Virus record (IMG/VR): IMGVR_UViG_3300010354_009115
Span: 1-22,859 of that record
Origin: a virus
Strand: one strand, 5' to 3'
DNA: 22,859 bases
A program made the translations under genes and the position numbers. A model generated the notes under the pieces. That model saw nothing but the letters and a program-made list of their open reading frames with translations, was not told the origin of the DNA and ran no database searches. Each line of letters begins with the position of its first letter. The stretch's first letter is position 1. Shown here one piece after another: positions 4,200 to 16,076 of this stretch.

Positions 4200-4258
4200 A
4201 TTGCTGGTATGCTATTATTGAAGAATTTCCTTCTCTGAAAGACTCACTCGAGTTATAA
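4175..4258 (+). pseudogene. Remnant of a second thyX 3' end
   Basis: In the frame beginning at 4175, directly after a TGA, the DNA encodes KEHREIALDCWY, then AIIEEFPSLKDSLEL and stop. This aligns without gaps to the thyX C-terminus (KEHREVARDAWY, then QITETFPSLRDCLDL), 18 of 27 residues identical by my count. There is no start codon or upstream thyX sequence. The remnant's stop TAA (4256-4258) lies inside the late promoter TATAAATA. It appears to be the 3' end of an older or different thyX left behind when the present one and two small genes moved in. Confidence 0.85.
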
Positions 4259-4261
4259 ATA
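4254..4261 (+). promoter_or_regulatory. T4-type late promoter of the curli-like operon
   Basis: TATAAATA followed by CTTTCG, an exact match to the T4 late -10 consensus, which in T4 is read by gp55 with gp33 and the sliding clamp. It is 27 bases upstream of csgF, and the window carries a likely gp33 gene at 17682. The csgF ribosome-binding region is the purine run GGAAAGGAAAGG at about 4272-4283. Confidence 0.75.
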
Positions 4262-4287: not shown

Positions 4288-4749
4288 ATGAAAGCATCAA
4301 CAGCTTTCGTTATGCTTTTCGTTATGTCTTCATCCGTTAATTCAGCTGAAATGACACATCAATTCCTGTCACCATCTTTTAATGGAGCAGGATACACTAG
4401 CCACGTTTTATCCATATACAATATGGAATTGAGTAGAAAACTGGCTATCGAAGCACAAAGAAAAGCTGATTTATTAAAAGCAGAACAAGATGCCGCCAAT
4501 ACCCCATTGGCTAGGTTTCTTGCAAATTTAGAGTCTCGCGTGTTTAATGAACTCGCAAGACAGATGGTAGATAGAATGTTCTCTGGTGACGGTGAAGCAA
4601 ATCAGAGAGGTTCATTTACATTAGGTGGAAATACCATCGACTGGTATAGAGATGGCACAGAAGTCGTTCTTAATGTTACTGATGTTAATGGAACACTAAC
4701 AACAATCAGAGTACCATTAGGAGATTTCGGATGGATTCCACCAACCTAA
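4288..4749 (+). CDS. csgF: CsgF-like curli secretion accessory protein, 153 aa
   Basis: CsgF is exported to the cell surface and binds the CsgG pore, its N-terminal peptide forming a second constriction and its body anchoring the curli nucleator. The signal peptide MKASTAFVMLFVMSSSVNSA probably ends at residue 20, so the mature protein starts EMTHQFLSPSFNG. This matches the pore-binding N-terminus of CsgF (M-T-F/Y-Q-F-x-N/S-P-x-F-x-G). The C-terminal domain, TIDWYRDGTEVVLNVTDVNG and TLTTIRV, matches the CsgF beta domain (I-x-I-x-R-x-G-x-x-x-L-x-V-T-D). The middle has a Lys/Ala-rich helix. It is somewhat longer than the 138-residue E. coli protein. It overlaps csgG by 19 bases. Confidence 0.85.
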   Translation: MKASTAFVMLFVMSSSVNSAEMTHQFLSPSFNGAGYTSHVLSIYNMELSRKLAIEAQRKADLLKAEQDAANTPLARFLANLESRVFNELARQMVDRMFSGDGEANQRGSFTLGGNTIDWYRDGTEVVLNVTDVNGTLTTIRVPLGDFGWIPPT

Positions 4750-5537
4750 AAGCAGTTACATTATTAATCTCTGCTCTTGCTCTTGGTGGATGTGCCACTG
4801 CAGCTGGCACAAAAGCAATACCATATCAAGATGCAACAGTAACAACACCAACATTCTATAAGAAACAAGCGGTCCCCCAACCAGGTGGTCCGCCAATTGC
4901 CGTTGCAGTCTATAGATTTAATGATCAGACTGGGCAAAGAAAAGCATCACAGAATGTAGCAGTATTAAGTTCTGCTGTAACTCAAGGTGCAGACAATTAC
5001 CTGATCCGCTCTCTACAAGAAATCGGTGGCGGTAAATGGTTCAAAGTCATCGAACGTGGTAATCTAGATCATCTTATCAAAGAACGTCAAATCATTCGTC
5101 AAATGCGTGAACAATATGAAGGTAAGGATGCAAAACCATTACCACCAATGCTATTTGCTGGTGTTCTTCTTGAAGGTGGTATTATAGGTTACGACTCAAA
5201 TGTGAAAACTGGCGGTGCTGGCGCAAGAGTGTTAGGCATTGGAGCATCAACTCAATACAGCATTGATGAAATCGTAGTATCTCTCCGTGCAGTGTCAGTC
5301 ACCACAGGAGAAGTATTAGTATCTGTTACAACAACCAAAACGGTATATTCATTTAGAGATAATGCAGGTATGTTGAAGTTTGTCGATGCTGGAACAAGAG
5401 CATTAGAAGCAGAACTTGGCGCTGCCTCTAACGAAAGTATGAATAAAGCAGTTCAACTAGGTGTTCACGCTGCTGTGTTAGAACTAATCAAAGAAGGCGC
5501 AAGAAAGAAACACTGGAAAATTAAAGGAGCAAAATAA
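4731..5537 (+). CDS. csgG: CsgG-like outer-membrane secretion lipoprotein, 268 aa
   Basis: CsgG is a nonameric outer-membrane lipoprotein channel that exports unfolded curli subunits. The lipobox LALGGC gives a lipidated Cys21. The family core is plain: PIAVAVYRFNDQTGQ, GGKWFKVIERGNLDHLIKER with QIIRQ after it, GGIIGYDSN, GGAGARVLGIG, and the beta strands IDEIVVSLRAVSVTTGEVL with SVTTTKTVYS. The length is near that of E. coli CsgG. In the pore-constriction region (KASQNVAVLSSAV) I do not see the aromatic pair Tyr51/Phe56 of the E. coli loop, so the pore may be gated differently. AGGAG lies nine bases before ATG 4731. The stop is TAATG with the curlin gene. Confidence 0.95.
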   Translation: MDSTNLKAVTLLISALALGGCATAAGTKAIPYQDATVTTPTFYKKQAVPQPGGPPIAVAVYRFNDQTGQRKASQNVAVLSSAVTQGADNYLIRSLQEIGGGKWFKVIERGNLDHLIKERQIIRQMREQYEGKDAKPLPPMLFAGVLLEGGIIGYDSNVKTGGAGARVLGIGASTQYSIDEIVVSLRAVSVTTGEVLVSVTTTKTVYSFRDNAGMLKFVDAGTRALEAELGAASNESMNKAVQLGVHAAVLELIKEGARKKHWKIKGAK

Positions 5538-6205
5538 TGCGTAAATTTACAGCTTTCGTCATGTTCTTGATGTTGGCTGTTACTTCCCATGCATTTGCAC
5601 AAAATAAAGTTTATATTGAGCAGGCAGGTAACTCGAATTCAATAGATATCACACAAGTAGGAAACGGAAACAGAGTCGGTGATGCAAACTCAATTGCACT
5701 AATCACGGGTAATGGTAACTCAGTAACAACTTCACAGACTGGTAGTTCAAACGTAATTGACTATAACATAACTGGTAATAACAACACTGTAACAAAAACT
5801 ATTGTCGGTGACGGTAACACAAATACAACCACACTCGGTGATGGAACAACTGCTGCCACTAATGTTACAACAACAGCAACAGTTACAGGTGATGATAATA
5901 ACATAACACAAACTATCAAAGGTAATCTAATCACTTCTACCATTGATATTCAAGGCAACACTAACTCAATTACTCAAACAATAACAACAAGCAACAGCAA
6001 CAGTAACATTAGCATTCTTGGTGATCTAAACACCATCACCTCAACAATGTCTGGTTCTTCTGCTGGAGGCGGTCATCAATTGACTATGGATATTACAGGT
6101 TCGAGCAATCAATATACTATTGCTCAGACTGGTACAGTTGATACAATCGTAAGTGTTACAACAAATGGTTCTTCAAACGTAGTAAACATAAACTCAGGAA
6201 ACTAA
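5537..6205 (+). CDS. Curlin-repeat secreted amyloid protein, 222 aa
   Basis: Probable main fibre subunit or nucleator (CsgA/CsgB type). A signal peptide MRKFTAFVMFLMLAVTSHAFA precedes the mature QNKVYIEQAGNSNSIDITQVG. The rest is a series of about eight imperfect strand-loop-strand units of about 20-25 residues, rich in Asn, Thr, Ser and Gly, such as ITGNGNSVTTSQTGSSN, ITGNNNTVTKTIVGDGN and VTGDDNNITQTIKGN. These follow the curlin pattern of alternating hydrophobic and polar strands with G-x-x-N and Q positions. Only the first units keep the strict Q-x-G-x-x-N spacing. There are no cysteines. It immediately follows the pore gene, so it is most likely the pore's substrate. Confidence 0.85.
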   Translation: MRKFTAFVMFLMLAVTSHAFAQNKVYIEQAGNSNSIDITQVGNGNRVGDANSIALITGNGNSVTTSQTGSSNVIDYNITGNNNTVTKTIVGDGNTNTTTLGDGTTAATNVTTTATVTGDDNNITQTIKGNLITSTIDIQGNTNSITQTITTSNSNSNISILGDLNTITSTMSGSSAGGGHQLTMDITGSSNQYTIAQTGTVDTIVSVTTNGSSNVVNINSGN

Positions 6206-6206
6206 A

Positions 6207-7274
6207 ATGCTTAGAGTCCTGATGGCGTTATTGCTATTACCATCAGTAGCATATGCTGAAATTGGTTCGGTCGAATCATTCAAAGGTAATATCAGTATTG
6301 ACAGAAACAAAAATATATTCGATGGGAAAAAACAAAGTCCCATCGAATCTATGGATACTGTTATAACCAAATCTGAATCCGAAGCAAAACTCAAATTCAA
6401 AGATGATACGACTGTTAGAATAACACCTAACAGTCGTTTGCTTATTGACGACTTTGTTTATGACCCAAGTAATTCAGACGCAAGTAAAATATCACTCAAA
6501 GCAGCCATGGGAACTATTCGTTATGCGTCTGGACAAATAGCCAGAAACGATCCACAAAAAGTTGCTATCAGAACACCCACTGCTACTATATCCGTTCGTG
6601 GTACTGATTTTGCCATGTCTGTAGATGAAATCGGCAGAAGCCTCATTGTATTATTACCTAGCTGCGATGATGATCGCAAAATGTATAATTATGATGAAAG
6701 ACAAAATTGCGCTGTTGGTGAAATCAAAGTAGAAACACCAGAAGGATTTGTTGTTCTCAATCAACCATTCACCGCAACTACTGTTTATTCTGCTTCACAA
6801 ACACCAACACCTCCCGTTAGGATAAAACCAGACATTCGTATTATCAATAATAATATGTTTCTTGACACTCCCGATAGCATAACTGCAATGTTATCAAAAA
6901 TGAAAAAGGAAGAAGAAAAAAAGAAATTTCCTATAATTGAAATGACAGAAGAAGAAACAAAAGTGGCTGCTGATAATTCGAATAAGAAAATAACAGTAGA
7001 ACAAATAGCCCTAATCAATTCTGTTAAACTAAAAGTTTCACCAGACGCCATAAGACTTTCTGATTGTTCTGTGTTTAATGTGTGCTGGAATGAACGTGGA
7101 TTGAATCGATATCTAAAAGTGGATGGCAAATCAAAGAGCACAATCTATATTGGTATCAATGAAAGACAGGATAATGCAACTTATACTATTTCTCAGAATA
7201 GCGCAGAACCAGAAATCAAAATAACTGGAACTGGAAATCAAAACAGAATAACAATAAGGCAGCTTGATAGATGA
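6207..7274 (+). CDS. Periplasmic FecR-domain protein with curlin-like C-terminus, 355 aa
   Basis: The signal peptide MLRVLMALLLLPSVAYA is followed by a FecR domain (about residues 20-135): GSVESFKGNISI, DDTTVRITPNSRLLIDDF, LKAAMGTIRY, and RTPTATISVRGTDFAM, the last being the family's T-P-x-A-x-x-x-V-R-G-T-x-F signature. FecR domains sense or bind surface structures and signal to membrane partners. A Lys/Glu-rich helix follows (near residues 230-260), and the protein ends ITGTGNQNRITIRQLDR, which has the curlin G-x-x-N-x-x-x-x-x-Q spacing. Cysteine pairs (SCDD with QNCAV, and DCSVFNVC) suggest disulfides. FecR and CHASE2-cyclase genes are commonly neighbours in proteobacteria, so the two probably work together. 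Confidence 0.85.
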   Translation: MLRVLMALLLLPSVAYAEIGSVESFKGNISIDRNKNIFDGKKQSPIESMDTVITKSESEAKLKFKDDTTVRITPNSRLLIDDFVYDPSNSDASKISLKAAMGTIRYASGQIARNDPQKVAIRTPTATISVRGTDFAMSVDEIGRSLIVLLPSCDDDRKMYNYDERQNCAVGEIKVETPEGFVVLNQPFTATTVYSASQTPTPPVRIKPDIRIINNNMFLDTPDSITAMLSKMKKEEEKKKFPIIEMTEEETKVAADNSNKKITVEQIALINSVKLKVSPDAIRLSDCSVFNVCWNERGLNRYLKVDGKSKSTIYIGINERQDNATYTISQNSAEPEIKITGTGNQNRITIRQLDR

Positions 7275-8668
7275 GAAAAATTCTAGCACTGTTGTTCGCT
7301 TTGATCATAACTGTTGCATATGCGGAAGACCTTGGTGGAAATTTTGGGTTTGAAACTGGAACAATGTCTGGTTGGACTATCAGCAATGGTTCAGGAACAG
7401 TTAAATCTGCTACATCATGGAACTCAAATGGTACTGGTGTTAATGTAACAACAGGCATAACAAATTATAGTCCTGGTGGTGGTAACACATGGAATGTTAC
7501 TGGCTATGGTTCATACATGGCAAGTATTCAAGCTGGCTCTGGTTCTCCTACATTTGATGCCTCTACAACATCACTTGGTTTAACTGGTGCTGAGAATACT
7601 GCTATCAAAACATTTTTGACAAATCAGGGTGGTAATAGTAATCCAACCAATGCTTCATGGATGAAAAGAAACGTAACACTTGAAGCAGGTAAAACATACA
7701 CCATTGCTTGGCAATATATGTCAACTGATTATGTTCCATTCAATGATGGTTCAATGATTACACTAACACATTCTACAAATGCTGGAATTATACCTACTCT
7801 TAATAACGAACAGAAAAGATACGCTTTATTAGGCTTCACTAATCCTGGAACTGGTAACTATTCAACAGGCAGTTATGGTTCTACTGGTTGGCAATTGGCA
7901 GTATTCACTGTTCCAGAAAACGGTGAGTATACATTAGGATTTGCTTCGTTCAATCTTGGTGACACTGCTCTCAGTCCTATTCTATTAGTCGATCAAATAC
8001 AAGGTACGACTACACTGAATGGAACAAACTTCGGTCCTATCGCACCAAACGCTGGTTCTACAGCGCCGACAACACCAACGCAACCAACAACTCCTTCATA
8101 TGCTAGTTCAATAACAACACAACAACAGAACAGAGTTAACACTTGGTTGAATCGTGGTAATAATTCAAGCGGTGTTTATATCGAACAGATCGGAAACAAT
8201 AATAATATAACAGTTCTGCAAAAGAATCATAAAGATAACTATATCAAATATCAAGGTGCTGGAAATAATAGCACAGTGAATATAACTCAACAAACAGATA
8301 ATGGAACTGGTGCTGGACATTACTTAGAATTAACTAACACTGGTAACCAGAACACGATAAATCTTACACAAGATAATAACGGTGGTAAGAAAATGTTTGT
8401 TGATAATAATGGATCTGGGAATAACATTAATGTTACTCAGAAGAATGGTGGCAATCATTATCTTGATCTAGGATTAACTGGCAATGGTCATTCTGCTACT
8501 ATTGTGCAAGAAGGATCTGGTAACCATGCTGCTACGATACGACTAAATAATGCAGGTGGTTCTTCTACTTTGAATCTTAGTCAGTCTGGAACTACTAATC
8601 AAGTGTATTCTATAGAACAAACATGCACTAATCCAGCTGGGTGTAGTGTATCGGTGACTCAACAATGA
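7271..8668 (+). CDS. Secreted adhesin-like protein with C-terminal curlin repeats, 465 aa
   Basis: Three parts are visible. A signal peptide (MRKILALLFALIITVAYA) leads to an N-terminal domain of about 235 residues starting NFGFETGTMSGWTISNG, with strands such as VTLEAGKTYTIAWQYMSTD and VPENGEYTLGFASFNLGD; this looks like a beta-sandwich of the kind seen in carbohydrate-binding or surface proteins. A Thr/Pro linker (TAPTTPTQPTTPS) follows. From about residue 300 come seven or so curlin-like units (VYIEQIGNNNNITVLQ, GNNSTVNITQQ, GNQNTINLTQ, GNNINVTQ, GHSATIVQEGSGN). The last 20 residues hold two cysteines. The plan suggests a fibre tip or fibre-anchored adhesin that joins the amyloid through its repeats. 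It overlaps both neighbours through ATGA. Confidence 0.8.
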   Translation: MRKILALLFALIITVAYAEDLGGNFGFETGTMSGWTISNGSGTVKSATSWNSNGTGVNVTTGITNYSPGGGNTWNVTGYGSYMASIQAGSGSPTFDASTTSLGLTGAENTAIKTFLTNQGGNSNPTNASWMKRNVTLEAGKTYTIAWQYMSTDYVPFNDGSMITLTHSTNAGIIPTLNNEQKRYALLGFTNPGTGNYSTGSYGSTGWQLAVFTVPENGEYTLGFASFNLGDTALSPILLVDQIQGTTTLNGTNFGPIAPNAGSTAPTTPTQPTTPSYASSITTQQQNRVNTWLNRGNNSSGVYIEQIGNNNNITVLQKNHKDNYIKYQGAGNNSTVNITQQTDNGTGAGHYLELTNTGNQNTINLTQDNNGGKKMFVDNNGSGNNINVTQKNGGNHYLDLGLTGNGHSATIVQEGSGNHAATIRLNNAGGSSTLNLSQSGTTNQVYSIEQTCTNPAGCSVSVTQQ

Positions 8669-10710
8669 AAAAACTTATAGCATTTTTAATCCTTGGACTA
8701 TTTGTATTTTTGAAAGTGATGGATTATTCGCCTGTTGAGATATTGCGACTAAAGACGTTTGATTATTTGTTAACAAGCAAAACGCCAGTTAAGTCGGATA
8801 ATATTGTTATTGTTTCTATTGATGAAAAATCAATAAAAGAAAAAGGTCAGTGGCCATGGTCGCGCAAAGATATTGCGGAGACCATGGAAACATTGTTCAA
8901 GCAAGGCGCAGGAATAGTTGTGTTTCCTGTTCTTATGTCCGAAAAAGATAGAATGGGCACTGATGAAATCCTTTCTGAGTTTCTGAAGAAACAGAAGGGC
9001 GTTGTAATATCACAAACGCCAACGACTCAGAAAGGAAATGAAAATGCAGTTGTTCGTGGATATTCAGCTATTGGTGGTGACGTTCTACCTTATATTGCTA
9101 GGTGGAATAGTGTTATCGGTCCTTTACCCGATTTTGGTAAGAATGCTTCGGGCGTCGGGATGGCAGCGACCACTCCTGAAAGGGACGGTGTTGTACGCCG
9201 CATCCCTATGCTTGTGGCTATTGGCGAGTCTGTATTTCCCTCGATTGTTTTGGAATCTATACGTGTTGCTGTAGGATCACCATCATTTCAAATTAAATCT
9301 ACCGATGCGGGAATTGAAGCAGTCAGAGTTCGTGGATTCAAACCGCTAACAACCGATTCAAACGCTAGAATATGGCTAAACTGGAACTATCAATTCAATA
9401 AGATATCTTACACAGATATTGCAAAAACAGATATCAAAGGCAAGATAGCTATTCTTGGATTGGAAGTAGAAGGCGTTGGAGGAATTATTGCTACACCATT
9501 AGGATCGAAATGGTCTCATGAAATACAGGCATTAGGTATTGAATCTGCGATACAGGGTAACACACCAGTTCGCTTTGCATTCGCTAATCTTCTTGAAGCA
9601 ATCAGTATTGCTACTATTGGTATTGCGGTGATATTACTCACACCCATACTATTACCCATCGTAACATACTTATTATATCCCATATTTGTTGGATTGTCAA
9701 GTCTTTTTTCTTACTATATGTTCAAAGAATATGGACAGCTGTGGGATGTGAGTTTTCTGATTGTATCTTTCACCATCGTGTTCGGATACATGGTAATTCT
9801 AAAATTCCTCAAAGAACTATTCCTGAAACTACAAATCAAGAAACAGTTTGGTACATATCTTTCACCAGCACTGGTTGAGAAGCTACAGAAGAATCCTGAC
9901 CTGCTAAAACTAGGAGGAGAAACCCGTGAGCTGTCAATTATGTTTACGGATGTTCGTGGTTTTACTTCTATTTCTGAGCACTATGGCGATAATGTGCAAG
10001 GTCTTACACAAATAATGAATCGTTACATGACAGCTATGACGGAGAAGATTATCAAAAATGAAGGCACTTTGGATAAGTATATTGGAGATGCTCAAATGGC
10101 TTTCTGGAACGCTCCCTTAGATAATCCAAGACATGCCAGAGACGCGGTTAAAACAGCACTGGAGATGCTAGATGATTTGGACGTTTTCAATAATTCTATC
10201 TCGTCTGAAGGGGTTCCTCCTTTTGGTATGGGCATTGGGATCAATACTGGTAGTGTTGTCGTTGGCAACATGGGCTCTGCTCAAAGATTTGATTATACCT
10301 GTTTGGGCGATTCTGTCAACTTGGCTTCGAGGCTAGAAGGACAGTCAAAGAACTATGGAGTAAGATTGATTATAGGCGAAGAAACCGCTAAACAGATAAT
10401 GAACGATTTCCATGTCATAAAACTTGATGTTATAGCAGTCAAAGGAAAAAACATTGGAGTTGGAATATACACTATTATATCACCAAACGATATCATGCCC
10501 GTATACCAAAGCACACACAAAGATTTTCGAAAATTCTATGGAGAAGGTAATTGGGATCAAGCATTAGAATTCTTGAGAGTATTAAAGAGCGATCGTGTTT
10601 TCAATGGATTTCTCAAAGAATACTATATAATAATGGAGGAGCGGATTTTAGAATATAAAGCTAATCCACCTGAAAATTGGGATGGAACATATAAAGCAAC
10701 TAGCAAGTGA
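8665..10710 (+). CDS. CHASE2-domain class III adenylate cyclase, 681 aa
   Basis: Membrane receptor cyclase. The first 20 residues are a membrane anchor. Residues about 25-300 form a CHASE2 sensor, expected in the periplasm (RLKTFDYLL, IVIVSIDEKSIKEKGQWPW, GPLPDF, DGVVRRIP, KIAILGL). Three membrane segments lie at about 307-380, then a linker (FGTYLSPALVEKL) and the catalytic domain (about 420-605). Catalytic residues are present: metal-binding Asp429 (MFTDVRGFTSIS) and Asp475 (DKYIGDAQMAFW), Lys471 and Thr545 at the base-specifying positions, and Asn552 and Arg556 for the transition state (GDSVNLASRLEG). Lys/Thr fits ATP, so the product is probably cyclic AMP. The gene overlaps the adhesin gene by ATGA and ends the operon. 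Confidence 0.93.
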   Translation: MKKLIAFLILGLFVFLKVMDYSPVEILRLKTFDYLLTSKTPVKSDNIVIVSIDEKSIKEKGQWPWSRKDIAETMETLFKQGAGIVVFPVLMSEKDRMGTDEILSEFLKKQKGVVISQTPTTQKGNENAVVRGYSAIGGDVLPYIARWNSVIGPLPDFGKNASGVGMAATTPERDGVVRRIPMLVAIGESVFPSIVLESIRVAVGSPSFQIKSTDAGIEAVRVRGFKPLTTDSNARIWLNWNYQFNKISYTDIAKTDIKGKIAILGLEVEGVGGIIATPLGSKWSHEIQALGIESAIQGNTPVRFAFANLLEAISIATIGIAVILLTPILLPIVTYLLYPIFVGLSSLFSYYMFKEYGQLWDVSFLIVSFTIVFGYMVILKFLKELFLKLQIKKQFGTYLSPALVEKLQKNPDLLKLGGETRELSIMFTDVRGFTSISEHYGDNVQGLTQIMNRYMTAMTEKIIKNEGTLDKYIGDAQMAFWNAPLDNPRHARDAVKTALEMLDDLDVFNNSISSEGVPPFGMGIGINTGSVVVGNMGSAQRFDYTCLGDSVNLASRLEGQSKNYGVRLIIGEETAKQIMNDFHVIKLDVIAVKGKNIGVGIYTIISPNDIMPVYQSTHKDFRKFYGEGNWDQALEFLRVLKSDRVFNGFLKEYYIIMEERILEYKANPPENWDGTYKATSK

Positions 10711-11338: not shown

Positions 11339-11689
11339 TTACTTTTTTTTGGCTTCTTGTTTCTGGTTATCAGCAGTATCTTCGGTTGGCTTAGATACGG
11401 TCCCCTTCTCTTCATTAACAATAAACTCATTAGCTTTTTGTGTTAACTCGTCGTGTTCCATTTTACGGAGTTGAAGAACTATATTAACTTTTTGATTAAG
11501 ACGAATGAGGTCATTATCCAACATACGAATACGATCAATGAGAGCAATCAAAACTTTATTAGCGTCTGATAATACTGGTTTGACTTCTTTTGTTGCCCAC
11601 ACCCAAACGAAATAAACGAAATAACCAAGCCCAACTGCTGCAACAATAGGAAAACCGTATTTACTTATAAGCTCTGCGATATTGCCCAT
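11339..11689 (-). CDS. Small one-TM protein with coiled coil, holin-like candidate, 116 aa
   Basis: The N-terminus (MGNIAELISKYGFPIVAAVG) leads into one membrane segment at about residues 12-33, ending with aromatic residues. An amphipathic, probably coiled-coil stretch (LIALIDRIRMLDNDLIRL) follows, and then a charged tail ending KKK. It is a paralogue of the protein at 11887-12174: both have GFPI-hydrophobic-AA, a G-Y-F motif and a D-x-R-hydrophobic-x-x-hydrophobic-x-x-D-hydrophobic-I-R pattern. The layout resembles BhlA/UviB-type holin-like proteins, but this is a resemblance of plan only. It is the last gene of a minus-strand late block and converges with the oxygenase gene. Confidence 0.6.
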   Translation of the reverse strand: MGNIAELISKYGFPIVAAVGLGYFVYFVWVWATKEVKPVLSDANKVLIALIDRIRMLDNDLIRLNQKVNIVLQLRKMEHDELTQKANEFIVNEEKGTVSKPTEDTADNQKQEAKKK

Positions 11690-11915
11690 CTTTGATCTCT
11701 ACTCTTTTTAATGCGGCTCTACCATCATCTAGTTCAACTGCTTCAAAAAAAGTGCCTGGTTTAAATGGTAATAGTTTATTTACTCTTTGTTTAGGATTAG
11801 AAGTGAATACAAGTTCTTCGTCGAATATAATTATGTCTGAGCCTATTGAAAATGTATATCCCAAATGAGGCATAGCTTGTTTGTATTCAGTCTCTTCTTG
11901 CGTCGTTTTTGCCAT
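11661..11915 (-). CDS. Small soluble hypothetical protein, 84 aa
   Basis: The open frame runs further upstream, but ATG 11915 (MAKTTQEETEYKQ) is the likely start, because it gives a 29-base overlap with the upstream gene, equal to the 29-base overlap with the gene below. The product has no signal peptide or membrane segment. Its middle (SIGSDIIIFDEELVFTSNP) and end (AVELDDGRAALKRVEIKDG) look like a small beta-barrel. It sits between two paralogous membrane proteins, which suggests the three act together. No family recognised. Confidence 0.55.
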   Translation of the reverse strand: MAKTTQEETEYKQAMPHLGYTFSIGSDIIIFDEELVFTSNPKQRVNKLLPFKPGTFFEAVELDDGRAALKRVEIKDGQYRRAYK

Positions 11916-12174
11916 CTGCTCTTGCCAATCTATCAACATCGGGCTTGACACCCATTGCATTTGATACCAAAGTATCGATTCGAATAACATCGTGATTCAT
12001 TGTTTTTACTCGATTGTCGAGTGCGGTAATGATACCACTTAGACCTTGTACTGAACTCATAACACCAGCGAGTATAAATTTCATTGTAAGGAAGATAAAA
12101 TAACCACCAGCAATTGCTGCCGCTATAGGGAATCCTACATCGGAAATAAGTTTAAATGCTGCGTTTACATCCAT
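11887..12174 (-). CDS. Small one-TM protein, paralogue of 11339-11689, 95 aa
   Basis: ATG 12174 follows AAGGAAAT and a minus-strand late promoter 30 bases upstream, so I prefer it to longer in-frame starts. The N-terminus (MDVNAAFKLISDVGFPIAAA) leads into a membrane segment (about residues 14-38), then an amphipathic stretch (ITALDNRVKTMNHDVIRID). It shares its plan with the protein at 11339-11689 but has a shorter tail. Duplicated small membrane proteins expressed late are plausible lysis or membrane-disrupting proteins; no endolysin is directly adjacent to test that. Confidence 0.6.
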   Translation of the reverse strand: MDVNAAFKLISDVGFPIAAAIAGGYFIFLTMKFILAGVMSSVQGLSGIITALDNRVKTMNHDVIRIDTLVSNAMGVKPDVDRLARADGKNDARRD

Positions 12175-12203
12175 GGTAGATTTCCTTTCTTTCTTTCCGC
12201 CTT

Positions 12204-12211
12204 TATTTATA
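12204..12211 (-). promoter_or_regulatory. T4-type late promoter, minus strand
   Basis: Read on the minus strand this is TATAAATA followed by AAGGCG, an exact late -10 consensus 30 bases before the ATG at 12174. It would drive the three-gene minus-strand block 12174-11339. Confidence 0.7.
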
Positions 12212-12246
12212 TATTTGATTGAAACGCTAAATAAGGATATAAGATT

Positions 12247-12480
12247 ATGCCAACATATACGTTCCATAACACCAAGACCGATAAATACCATGAGGAGTTC
12301 ATGACAATTTCCTCCATGGAAGAGTATCTCGCACAAAATCCCCACATCAATATATTACCTGCCGCTCCGATGATCGTATCGGGCGTTGCTTCAGGCACAA
12401 ACAAACCAGATAGTGGATTTCGCGATCTACTCAAGACTATCAAGAAAAATAGTCCCCGTTCAACAATCAACACATTCTAG
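12247..12480 (+). CDS. Conserved T4-like small protein, 77 aa
   Basis: The protein begins MPTYTFHNTKTDKYHEEFMT and ends SGFRDLLKTIKKNSPRSTIN followed by TF. This matches a small family common in T4-like cyanophages and relatives (M-P-T-Y-x-F at the start, ENPHI-like centre, D-x-G-F-R-D-hydrophobic-L-K near the end). The N-terminus resembles FmdB-type regulators, but the paired cysteines of the FmdB zinc ribbon are absent. AAGGAT is eight bases upstream. It is read divergently from the minus-strand late block. Role unknown, possibly regulatory. Confidence 0.65.
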   Translation: MPTYTFHNTKTDKYHEEFMTISSMEEYLAQNPHINILPAAPMIVSGVASGTNKPDSGFRDLLKTIKKNSPRSTINTF

Positions 12481-15224: not shown

Positions 15225-16076
15225 ATGTCTTTTTACAATGATTGTGGTAATGATAAACCATTGAGTATTATCGCTGGTCCTTGCGTGTTTGAAGGAAAAT
15301 ACCATGCGATAGAAATGGCTGATCGTTTGCGAACTATAGTCCAAGATATTGGATTTGTGTTGGGACGATCAGTCAACTTCATATATAAGACGTCCTTCGA
15401 TAAGGCGAATCGAACATCTGCGGGAGGCTATAGAGGTGCGGGGTTCGATGAAGCGTTTTATGGAATGGACGCCGTCCGTGGATTAGGTATTCCTGTTCTT
15501 ACGGACGTTCATGACCCCTGGCAATGTGCGGCGGTAAATGCTGATATCATACAGATTCCCGCTTTCCTTTGCAGGCAGACTGATCTACTCGAGGCAGCAG
15601 CGCAGACTGGTAAACCAGTCAATGTCAAGAAAGGTCAGTTTCTTTCACCACAAGAAATGAAAAACGTGGTGGAAAAGTTGGAACATTTTGGTTGCAAGCA
15701 AATTATGCAAACTGAACGCGGAACAACATTTGGTTATAATAATCTAGTTGTTGATATGCGTTCACTTGATATTATGAAACGCAACCAATATCCTGTTATC
15801 ATGGACTGTACTCATGCAGTCCAACTTCCTGGAGGTCAAGGAACATCATCTGGCGGTCAACGTGAGTTCGTACAAACTCTTGCTCGTGCGGCAGTTGCTG
15901 TTGGCGTGGCAGGCGTTTTTATGGAAGTGCATAATGATCCTGATAATGCTCCGTGTGATGGACCCAATATGTTAGATCTTGACATGTTCGAAGATTTACT
16001 ATATGATTTGTTGAAGATTGATCGTGTGAGAAAGGAAATTGATCATGAAAGACGACTTCAAGGAAGACAGCAATAA
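15225..16076 (+). CDS. kdsA: KDO-8-phosphate synthase (KdsA), 283 aa
   Basis: KdsA joins phosphoenolpyruvate and arabinose-5-phosphate to give KDO-8-phosphate, the precursor of the lipopolysaccharide inner-core sugar. The protein is full length and holds the family motifs: IIAGPCVFEGK, FIYKTSFDKANRTS, LTDVHDPWQ, KKGQFLSPQEM, TERGTTFGYNNL, DCTHAVQLPGG and MEVHNDPDNAPCDGPN. The Cys of GPC stands where metal-dependent KdsA enzymes have their metal-binding cysteine (metal-independent ones have Asn), and the His and Glu/Asp partners are present. No KdsB or arabinose-5-phosphate isomerase is nearby, so it would boost the host pathway. Other members of the aldolase family (DAHP or NeuB type) fit less well. 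Confidence 0.9.
   Translation: MSFYNDCGNDKPLSIIAGPCVFEGKYHAIEMADRLRTIVQDIGFVLGRSVNFIYKTSFDKANRTSAGGYRGAGFDEAFYGMDAVRGLGIPVLTDVHDPWQCAAVNADIIQIPAFLCRQTDLLEAAAQTGKPVNVKKGQFLSPQEMKNVVEKLEHFGCKQIMQTERGTTFGYNNLVVDMRSLDIMKRNQYPVIMDCTHAVQLPGGQGTSSGGQREFVQTLARAAVAVGVAGVFMEVHNDPDNAPCDGPNMLDLDMFEDLLYDLLKIDRVRKEIDHERRLQGRQQ

Follow-up and report, generated by a model that had tools for sequence, protein, structure and literature searches.

What is the function of a curlin that carries a large folded domain in front of its repeats? This question is raised by a two-part gene in a virus sequence of 22,859 nucleotides (IMG/VR virus record IMGVR_UViG_3300010354_009115, positions 1-22,859, one strand), the whole of which is called the window below. 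This gene encodes the second curlin of a type VIII (curli) secretion operon, one of a published type that is carried by a phage (Table 1). We propose, with a probability of roughly 0.6, that its product is a FimH-like two-domain adhesin that is exported unfolded, docks on phage-made curli and displays a probable glycan-binding head.

The original prediction, made from the letters alone, had described the open reading frame (ORF) as a bipartite protein, and modelling bears this out. AlphaFold2 predicts the N-terminal head alone (residues 19-262; 34 sequences) as a confident beta sandwich with a predicted local distance difference test score (pLDDT) of 86.3 and a predicted template modelling score (pTM) of 0.87, in agreement with the non-repeat beta-sandwich domain suspected there. 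The mature protein (23 aligned sequences) is modelled with a pLDDT of 78.7 and a pTM of 0.56. In this model, the Thr/Pro linker that had been noticed before the repeats, PTTPTQPTTPSYASS, has a pLDDT of mostly 29-49, and the C-terminal part consists of 14 alternating strands with a pLDDT of mostly 80-95, forming seven strand-turn-strand units where seven or so curlin units had been forecast. As expected of a curlin, the predicted tail is a stacked strand-turn-strand beta solenoid, and it aligns with the beta helix of SufD (Z 12.9, 183 residues, root-mean-square deviation [rmsd] 3.3). A strict sequence pattern places the first curlin repeat at residue 301. The protein departs from a plain curlin, which has only repeats after the signal peptide and an open-ended solenoid, by its head of ~244 residues and a C-terminal cysteine pair. 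Comparison with an 89%-identical homologue in the locus L002 indicates strong purifying selection on both parts: the ratio of nonsynonymous to synonymous substitution rates (dN/dS) is 0.064 in the head and 0.053 in the repeats, and over the whole gene it is 0.065. Because of the whole-gene ratio, the ORF is taken as a selected gene, and a chance ORF is rejected.

The gene is embedded in an operon with the order CsgF, CsgG, curlin, FecR, two-part gene and CHASE2-cyclase, as assigned with Pfam. It shares four bases with each neighbour, its start with the FecR stop and its stop with the start of the cyclase (ATGA at 7271-7274 and 8665-8668). A curlin-tailed gene between FecR and the CHASE2-cyclase, encoded together with CsgG and CsgF, is what defines the second curlin of a phage curli operon, and the same gene order has already been published for pelagiphages (PMC9599517; this and the other papers cited are represented by the parts of their text that were available). 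The 222-residue first curlin is presumed to be the fibre subunit. The window also encodes a T4-type single-strand binding protein, ThyX, PhoH, a ClpP-like protein and a peptidoglycan endopeptidase-like gene. The origin from a bacterial locus was rejected on the grounds of the virus record, the T4-type single-stranded DNA-binding protein and the further phage genes.

What could the head bind? Its fold was compared with known structures, and the figures that follow hold among the matches listed, structures off the lists not being excluded thereby. The top match is a porphyran carbohydrate-binding module (CBM; Z 10.0, rmsd 2.8, 126 residues), and further matches include CBM16 and CBM61 (Z 9.2 each) and the CBM-like ends of the phage tailspikes K2-2 (Z 9.4) and CBA120 TSP4 (Z 9.2). 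The best Foldseek match is CBM61 (E 5.4e-5; template modelling [TM] score 0.60 when target-normalised and 0.39 when query-normalised). The listed matches are mostly carbohydrate-binding modules and CBM-like tailspike ends, and the predicted head model has the CBM-like beta-sandwich (jelly-roll) fold. Glycan binding by the head is plausible on this model. At the sequence level, Pfam gives no match to the head above its cut-off, and the NCBIfam model NF038132 scores 25.2 bits, below its curated cut-off of 90, and up to 34.5 in LPXTG relatives. Two BFVD entries from uncultured phages have a head of the same fold and sequence: A0A6J5MAT9, 'Curlin associated' (68% identity, Foldseek E 4.8e-34), and A0A6J5KUW0, 'Autotransporter beta-domain containing protein' (48% identity, Foldseek E 9.9e-28). 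Both exist as database entries only, and their names seem to derive from the C-terminal part.

The likeness of the head to tailspike ends would also suit a virion protein, such as a tail fibre or capsid decoration, that merely resembles a curlin. The signal peptide, the position between FecR and the cyclase in a curli operon, and the LPXTG and barrel anchors of relatives speak against such a protein, and on these grounds we rejected this reading as extremely improbable.

Is the head-bearing curlin an isolated case? The slot between FecR and the cyclase was surveyed in the loci of two CsgG scans, together with the window, two cultured phages and the loci L002 and L003 from a whole-protein search. 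Each scan contributed its best 80 loci, so these cluster near the queries, and the survey was limited to loci with FecR and cyclase ORFs (49/84 window-type and 27/82 HTVC008M-type). The slot is filled in 32/49 window-type and 22/27 HTVC008M-type operons. With near-copies removed (three window-type and eight HTVC008M-type slot proteins), 24 of the 34 distinct curlin-tailed slot proteins carry a recognised N-terminal head, namely 14/20 in the window-type set and 10/14 in the HTVC008M-type set. The window-type heads are the head of the window alone (four), with a further N-terminal module (one) or with F5/8C (one), F5/8C without this head (six) and PA14 (two), and the HTVC008M-type heads are PA14 (three) and an unidentified domain (seven), for which a PDB sequence search gave no match. 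PA14 and F5/8C heads pass the Pfam cut-offs. A cultured example is AGE60352.1 of Pelagibacter phage HTVC008M, annotated as 'hypothetical protein', in which PA14 (E 2.7e-6) is joined to curlin repeats (E 5.2e-8). The window-type slot also holds nine barrel-type proteins (four with this head, one with F5/8C and four others). A large barrel-type protein was seen in the slot, in place of a curlin or next to one, in L032, L041, L053, L054, L059, L061, L062, L072 and L079.

The heads are not tied to particular tails. L310, with the unidentified head, and L295, with PA14, are 93% identical over 232 C-terminal residues and unrelated at their N-termini, and their BLAST alignment starts where the heads stop. 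A tree of 55 tails, limited by a poor alignment of the curlin repeats and several long branches, needs 16 head-type changes against a minimum of six; this head alone needs nine, six of which are forced by well-supported branches. Judged from their sequences, heads are exchanged on the same curlin tail among related phages. With the tail retained and the head replaced from one related phage to the next, specificity would lie in the head. The original prediction had regarded the protein as a single odd curlin, and this view gives way to that of one form of a modular display protein, heads being usual in phage second curlins. Its premise that curlins normally consist only of repeats is right for bacteria, in which five head models found no match among distinct curlin-labelled ORFs (0/140), and wrong for phage second curlins, most of which are headed. 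The bacterial count leaves out six loci filed under bacterial genome bins (L099, L108, L117, L123, L142 and L152). With their phage-type curli genes, their high scores for phage CsgF and, in four cases, FecR as well, they look like phage contigs binned with bacteria. A further bacterial-bin locus, L086 (Hyphomonas sp. TMED17 bin), has CsgF, CsgG, a repeats-only curlin of 504 residues, FecR and cyclase in phage order, and the models of this analysis found no second curlin in it; it is possibly a relative of the source of the phage operon.

Does the same head occur without curli? A head profile scan of viral contigs, which by design selects for the head, found 284 encoded relatives, of which the best 80 loci were kept. 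Among these 80, with near-copies kept, 36 are fused to curlin and have curli genes alongside (36/36), 30 are of the outer-membrane-barrel type with no curli genes (0/30) in the fetched stretch, 13 have other C-terminal ends and likewise no curli genes in the fetched stretch, and one is a very long head protein (1445 residues) inside a curli operon. With near-copies removed and other phage loci added, the heads comprise 19 curlin-fused, 11 barrel-type, five LPXTG-type and one other. Six of the 13 non-curlin, non-barrel proteins were inspected, and all six have a Thr/Pro-rich stalk and an LPXTG-type C-terminus; four (L203, L208, L210 and L229) pass the NCBIfam LPXTG cut-off. The phage neighbours in the LPXTG loci that were tested are a sigma factor, a DNA polymerase exonuclease, an endolysin and a head-tail adaptor. 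The protein with this head on an LPXTG-type tail in L229 has a PA14-headed neighbour, whose C-terminus is hydrophobic-basic. The next downstream gene in L229 is endolysin-like. Phage contigs with this head on a surface protein and with curli genes absent nearby include L203-L211, L217, L229, L233 and L242. The Pfam autotransporter domain was found in L202, L032, L059 and L061 and not in L213, L215, L218 and L225, a group that profile comparison joins to the Pfam-positive barrels at 99.9%.

In bacteria, the head is rare: it was found in 6/398 genomes that sample the phylum to which a Hyphomonas genome belongs. The proteins found include one with a PEP-CTERM tail (L327) and one with autotransporter-like repeats (L326), of whose 2004-residue frame 820 residues were fetched. 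It was found in 0/80 bacterial CsgG loci and in 0/50,697 named phage records, and a search of four genomes behind bacterial loci gave no match. A branch of the head tree (99/97) separates the 19 curlin-fused heads from all others, and the LPXTG forms are scattered among the barrel forms. Because of this grouping and the head changes in the tail tree, a single fusion of this head to a curlin tail is probable, followed by recombination that carried it from tail to tail. The presence of the domain on two other surface anchors and the exchange of heads on the same tail agree with the earlier suggestion of a displayed, binding-type head.

How would the head be held on the fibre? A cysteine pair lies near the C-terminus in 56/56 distinct second curlins (C-x(3-6)-C in 54 and CxxC in two). 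A C-x(3-6)-C pair occurs in 0/79 first curlins, both counts also taking in the head-scan loci with near-copies removed, and a C-x(2-6)-C pair in 0/140 bacterial curlin-labelled ORFs. We propose this pair as a sequence criterion that marks phage second curlins. Beta solenoids can polymerise if they are open-ended and do not if they are capped or sterically blocked (PMC10192328), because of which the second curlin may end a fibre.

A deviant, cysteine-paired C-terminus that is always on the second curlin would also fit a CsgB-like minor subunit that sits at the base on CsgF/CsgG, as E. coli CsgB sits at the fibre base, and nucleates the 222-residue curlin; the head would then be an anchor or spacer rather than an exposed binder. 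Two curlins are encoded in most curli clusters, and CsgB, which binds CsgF, ends in a degenerate repeat (PMC10192328); relatives of the second curlin give weak scores with the CsgB model (L017 E 2.7e-6, L005 E 5.9e-4 and L009 E 1.6e-4). However, a nucleator needs no exchanged heads of several unrelated kinds, an anchor domain would not recur on LPXTG and barrel proteins without curli, and the second slot is empty in 22/76 complete operons of the two sets. We therefore regard the CsgB-like role as unlikely.

Can such a protein leave the cell? The CsgG pore is thought to pass unfolded chains, and the original prediction had questioned for this reason whether a folded domain could be exported. 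The head of the window contains no cysteine and only 6/34 related head sequences contain any; therefore, the head can fold once export is complete. CsgA has been fused to antibody domains and to trefoil factors, and these engineered proteins are exported and active (PMC9477280, PMC6898321). The doubt is thus eased and not settled, and the features of the head and the engineered fusions are compatible with export through CsgG.

In another reading, CsgG and CsgF serve as a pore for lysis timing or uptake. The head of the second curlin would then fold in the periplasm, and the protein would act as a plug or gate of the pore. A pore or pinholin reading of CsgGF has been put forward for phage Melnitz (PMC9004378), and CsgE is missing from the phage operons (PMC9599517). 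Nevertheless, both curlins start with a signal peptide (by eye), the second curlin is under selection, and the same head is found on surface anchors in phages without nearby curli genes, so that a gated pore is very unlikely.

When would the operon be expressed? The octamer TATAAATA, the late-promoter sequence of T4 and KVP40 (PMC2984593), precedes the operon. Its two copies in the window against 1.5 expected are alone not significant. Upstream of csgF, it is present in 34/110 distinct regions against ~3 expected, and in HTVC008M-type phages its spacing is mostly constant; this enrichment argues that the curli operon is probably expressed late.

Timing bears on a different use of the displayed head, in which it masks or blocks the receptors of the infected cell or acts as a decoy for other virions and thus excludes rivals. 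Curli-based protection against superinfection has been proposed (PMC9599517), and head exchange would suit an arms race between phages. Late expression would, however, come too late for most exclusion, and a long fibre is a poor mask for the receptors of the cell itself; exclusion of rivals is a doubtful benefit in our judgement. Over such blocking of rival phages, we favour, tentatively and at somewhat less than an even chance, a benefit by capture, in which neighbouring cells or particles are bound so that progeny meet new hosts.

For the adhesin that we propose, the export via CsgG, stacking, fibre-end position, glycan binding, timing and benefit are what we infer, as follows. The second curlin would enter the periplasm by Sec, cross the CsgG/CsgF pore of the phage as an unfolded chain and fold outside. 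Its seven-unit solenoid would stack on fibres of the 222-residue curlin, and because of the cysteine-paired cap at one end and the bulky head at the other, it would end the fibre rather than extend it. The linked beta-sandwich head would be presented as a binding domain whose ligands are most likely glycans. The infected cell would make the protein, probably late, and the protein would decorate the cell and not the virion; display on the infected cell is likely. The predicted architecture, an N-terminal head and a C-terminal capped solenoid, fits that of a two-domain pilus adhesin.

Several observations weigh against the adhesin. The fold match of the head is moderate (Z 10; query-normalised TM 0.39), a shared fold shows no function, and neither the head alone nor the head profile matched any PDB sequence. 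The Pfam curlin repeat PF07012 scores 13.4 bits in the second curlin, under the cut-off of 20.7, which is passed by the same-slot relatives AGE60352.1 of HTVC008M (33.1 bits) and L026 (25.6 bits). The slot is empty in 17/49 window-type and 5/27 HTVC008M-type complete operons; therefore, the second curlin is dispensable. Three loci with an empty slot (L040, L046 and L080) instead encode a large protein between their csgF and csgG genes, and no head was recognised in ten second curlins (four HTVC008M-type, that of Melnitz included, and six window-type). The barrel assignment leans partly on a profile built in this analysis. The export signal of E. coli CsgA is at the N-terminus of the mature protein, the place that a folded domain takes in the second curlin. 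The lack of CsgE in phage operons (PMC9599517) is a further difficulty. Finally, no clumping was seen with Melnitz (PMC9004378), though its second curlin consists only of repeats.

How does the second curlin compare with known systems? FimH- and PapG-type pilus tip adhesins consist of an N-terminal lectin domain, a linker and a C-terminal fibre-docking domain that is not extendable. They differ from the second curlin in fold, chaperone and pathway, the latter belonging to a phage-encoded curli (type VIII) system, and unlike them the second curlin exchanges unrelated head families. The engineered CsgA-VHH and CsgA-TFF fusions (PMC9477280, PMC6898321) likewise link a folded domain to a curlin and are exported through CsgG and displayed on fibres. 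They are designed, the TFF one being C-terminal, whereas the phage fusion, with its added domain at the N-terminus, is natural and subject to selection. Large Shewanella adhesins (PMC3521004), likened here by description only, contain spaced curli-like repeats within a larger adhesin and are called non-curli. The operons of pelagiphages and Melnitz (PMC7029224, PMC9599517, PMC9004378) share the order CsgF-CsgG-curlin-FecR-second curlin-cyclase; the available text of these papers describes no head, head exchange or cysteine cap, and that of PMC9599517 does not mention PA14, a fusion or an autotransporter. No description of head-bearing phage curlins was found in the literature searched, which lay outside subscription papers, preprints and supplements. 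NF038132 and other NCBI 'choice-of-anchor' domains occur as one domain on several sorting signals, as this head does, although the head matches NF038132 only weakly. We know of no such domain with curlin repeats among its anchors.

Table 1. Features of the curli operon, its second curlin and other parts of the window
Feature	Position	Strand	Description	Basis
T4-type late-promoter-like octamer	4254..4261	+	TATAAATA, upstream of operon, ~26 bases before csgF	
CsgF homologue	4288..4749	+	153 residues	Pfam PF10614 E 9.2e-14
CsgG homologue	4731..5537	+	268 residues, outer-membrane pore	Pfam PF03783 E 1.4e-52; lipobox LALGGC by eye
First curlin	5537..6205	+	222 residues, signal peptide then only repeats	Pfam PF07012 E 1.1e-4, above cut-off
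FecR-domain protein	6207..7274	+	355 residues, signal peptide and curlin-like C-terminal end	Pfam PF04773 E 3.7e-11; C-terminal ends of relatives
Inverted repeat	6408..6437		12 pairs, within FecR gene	
Second curlin	7271..8668	+	465 residues, two-part protein	ORF call, AlphaFold2 models, dN/dS
Sec signal peptide	7271..7324	+	residues 1-18, cleavage after AYA	by eye
Head	7325..8056	+	residues 19-262 (~244 residues, non-repeat), CBM-like beta sandwich	AlphaFold2 and fold matches
Linker	8048..8125	+	residues 260-285, Thr/Pro-rich	model residues 242-267, pLDDT mostly 29-49
Curlin-like beta solenoid	8165..8665	+	residues 299-465, seven units	14 strands in AlphaFold2 model
C-terminal cysteine pair	8624..8644	+	C452/C458, putative solenoid end cap	cysteine counts of relatives
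CHASE2-adenylate/guanylate cyclase	8665..10710	+	681 residues, last gene of operon	PF05226 E 1.2e-37; PF00211 E 1.4e-21
Small protein	11339..11689	-	one hydrophobic segment, coiled-coil-like tail	
Small protein	11887..12345	-	one hydrophobic segment, coiled-coil-like tail	
KDO-8-phosphate synthase (KdsA)	15225..16076		phage-encoded	two NCBIfam equivalog cut-offs passed

Other features of the operon and the window are noted in their own right. A hydrophobic, signal-peptide-like N-terminus is present in 151/153 FecR relatives, and curlin-like half repeats end 99/153 full-length ones (pattern-based, near-copies kept). The FecR-domain protein of the operon has been proposed in print as an iron regulator; it may instead be exported and serve at the fibre base or as an adaptor. 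The inverted repeat within its gene is stronger than the other inverted-repeat matches there. KdsA belongs to the synthesis of a lipopolysaccharide-core sugar, and the same phage may decorate the cell surface with it. The small proteins on the opposite strand downstream of the operon have counterparts in L002 (4062-4406, minus strand) and L003 (13469-13870, minus strand), and by eye they look like small holins.

What would these operons be for? Since the first description of phage curli operons in pelagimyophages in 2020, their purpose has not been agreed, and sibling capture, lysis pores and uptake channels have been proposed. A conserved, cysteine-capped, head-bearing subunit with exchangeable domains argues for display. 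We give even odds to the broader proposal that many unrelated phages hold exchangeable lectin-like heads and put them on the infected cell by whichever route the host permits, that is, on curlin tails, barrels or LPXTG signals. If this is true, curlin tails would be used via the phage CsgG in some Gram-negative hosts and autotransporter-type barrels in others, and LPXTG sorting signals would serve phages of Gram-positive hosts. The system would further provide a naturally occurring example of multi-domain export through CsgG, something that engineers of curli have had to show by construction. These predictions could be addressed in a cultured system, HTVC008M on HTCC1062 with the gene of AGE60352.1. 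Under the broader proposal, phage curli operons would serve to display heads, the plain curlin forming the stalk, and the heads would be exchanged like receptor-binding proteins, but for the surface of the infected cell instead of the virion.

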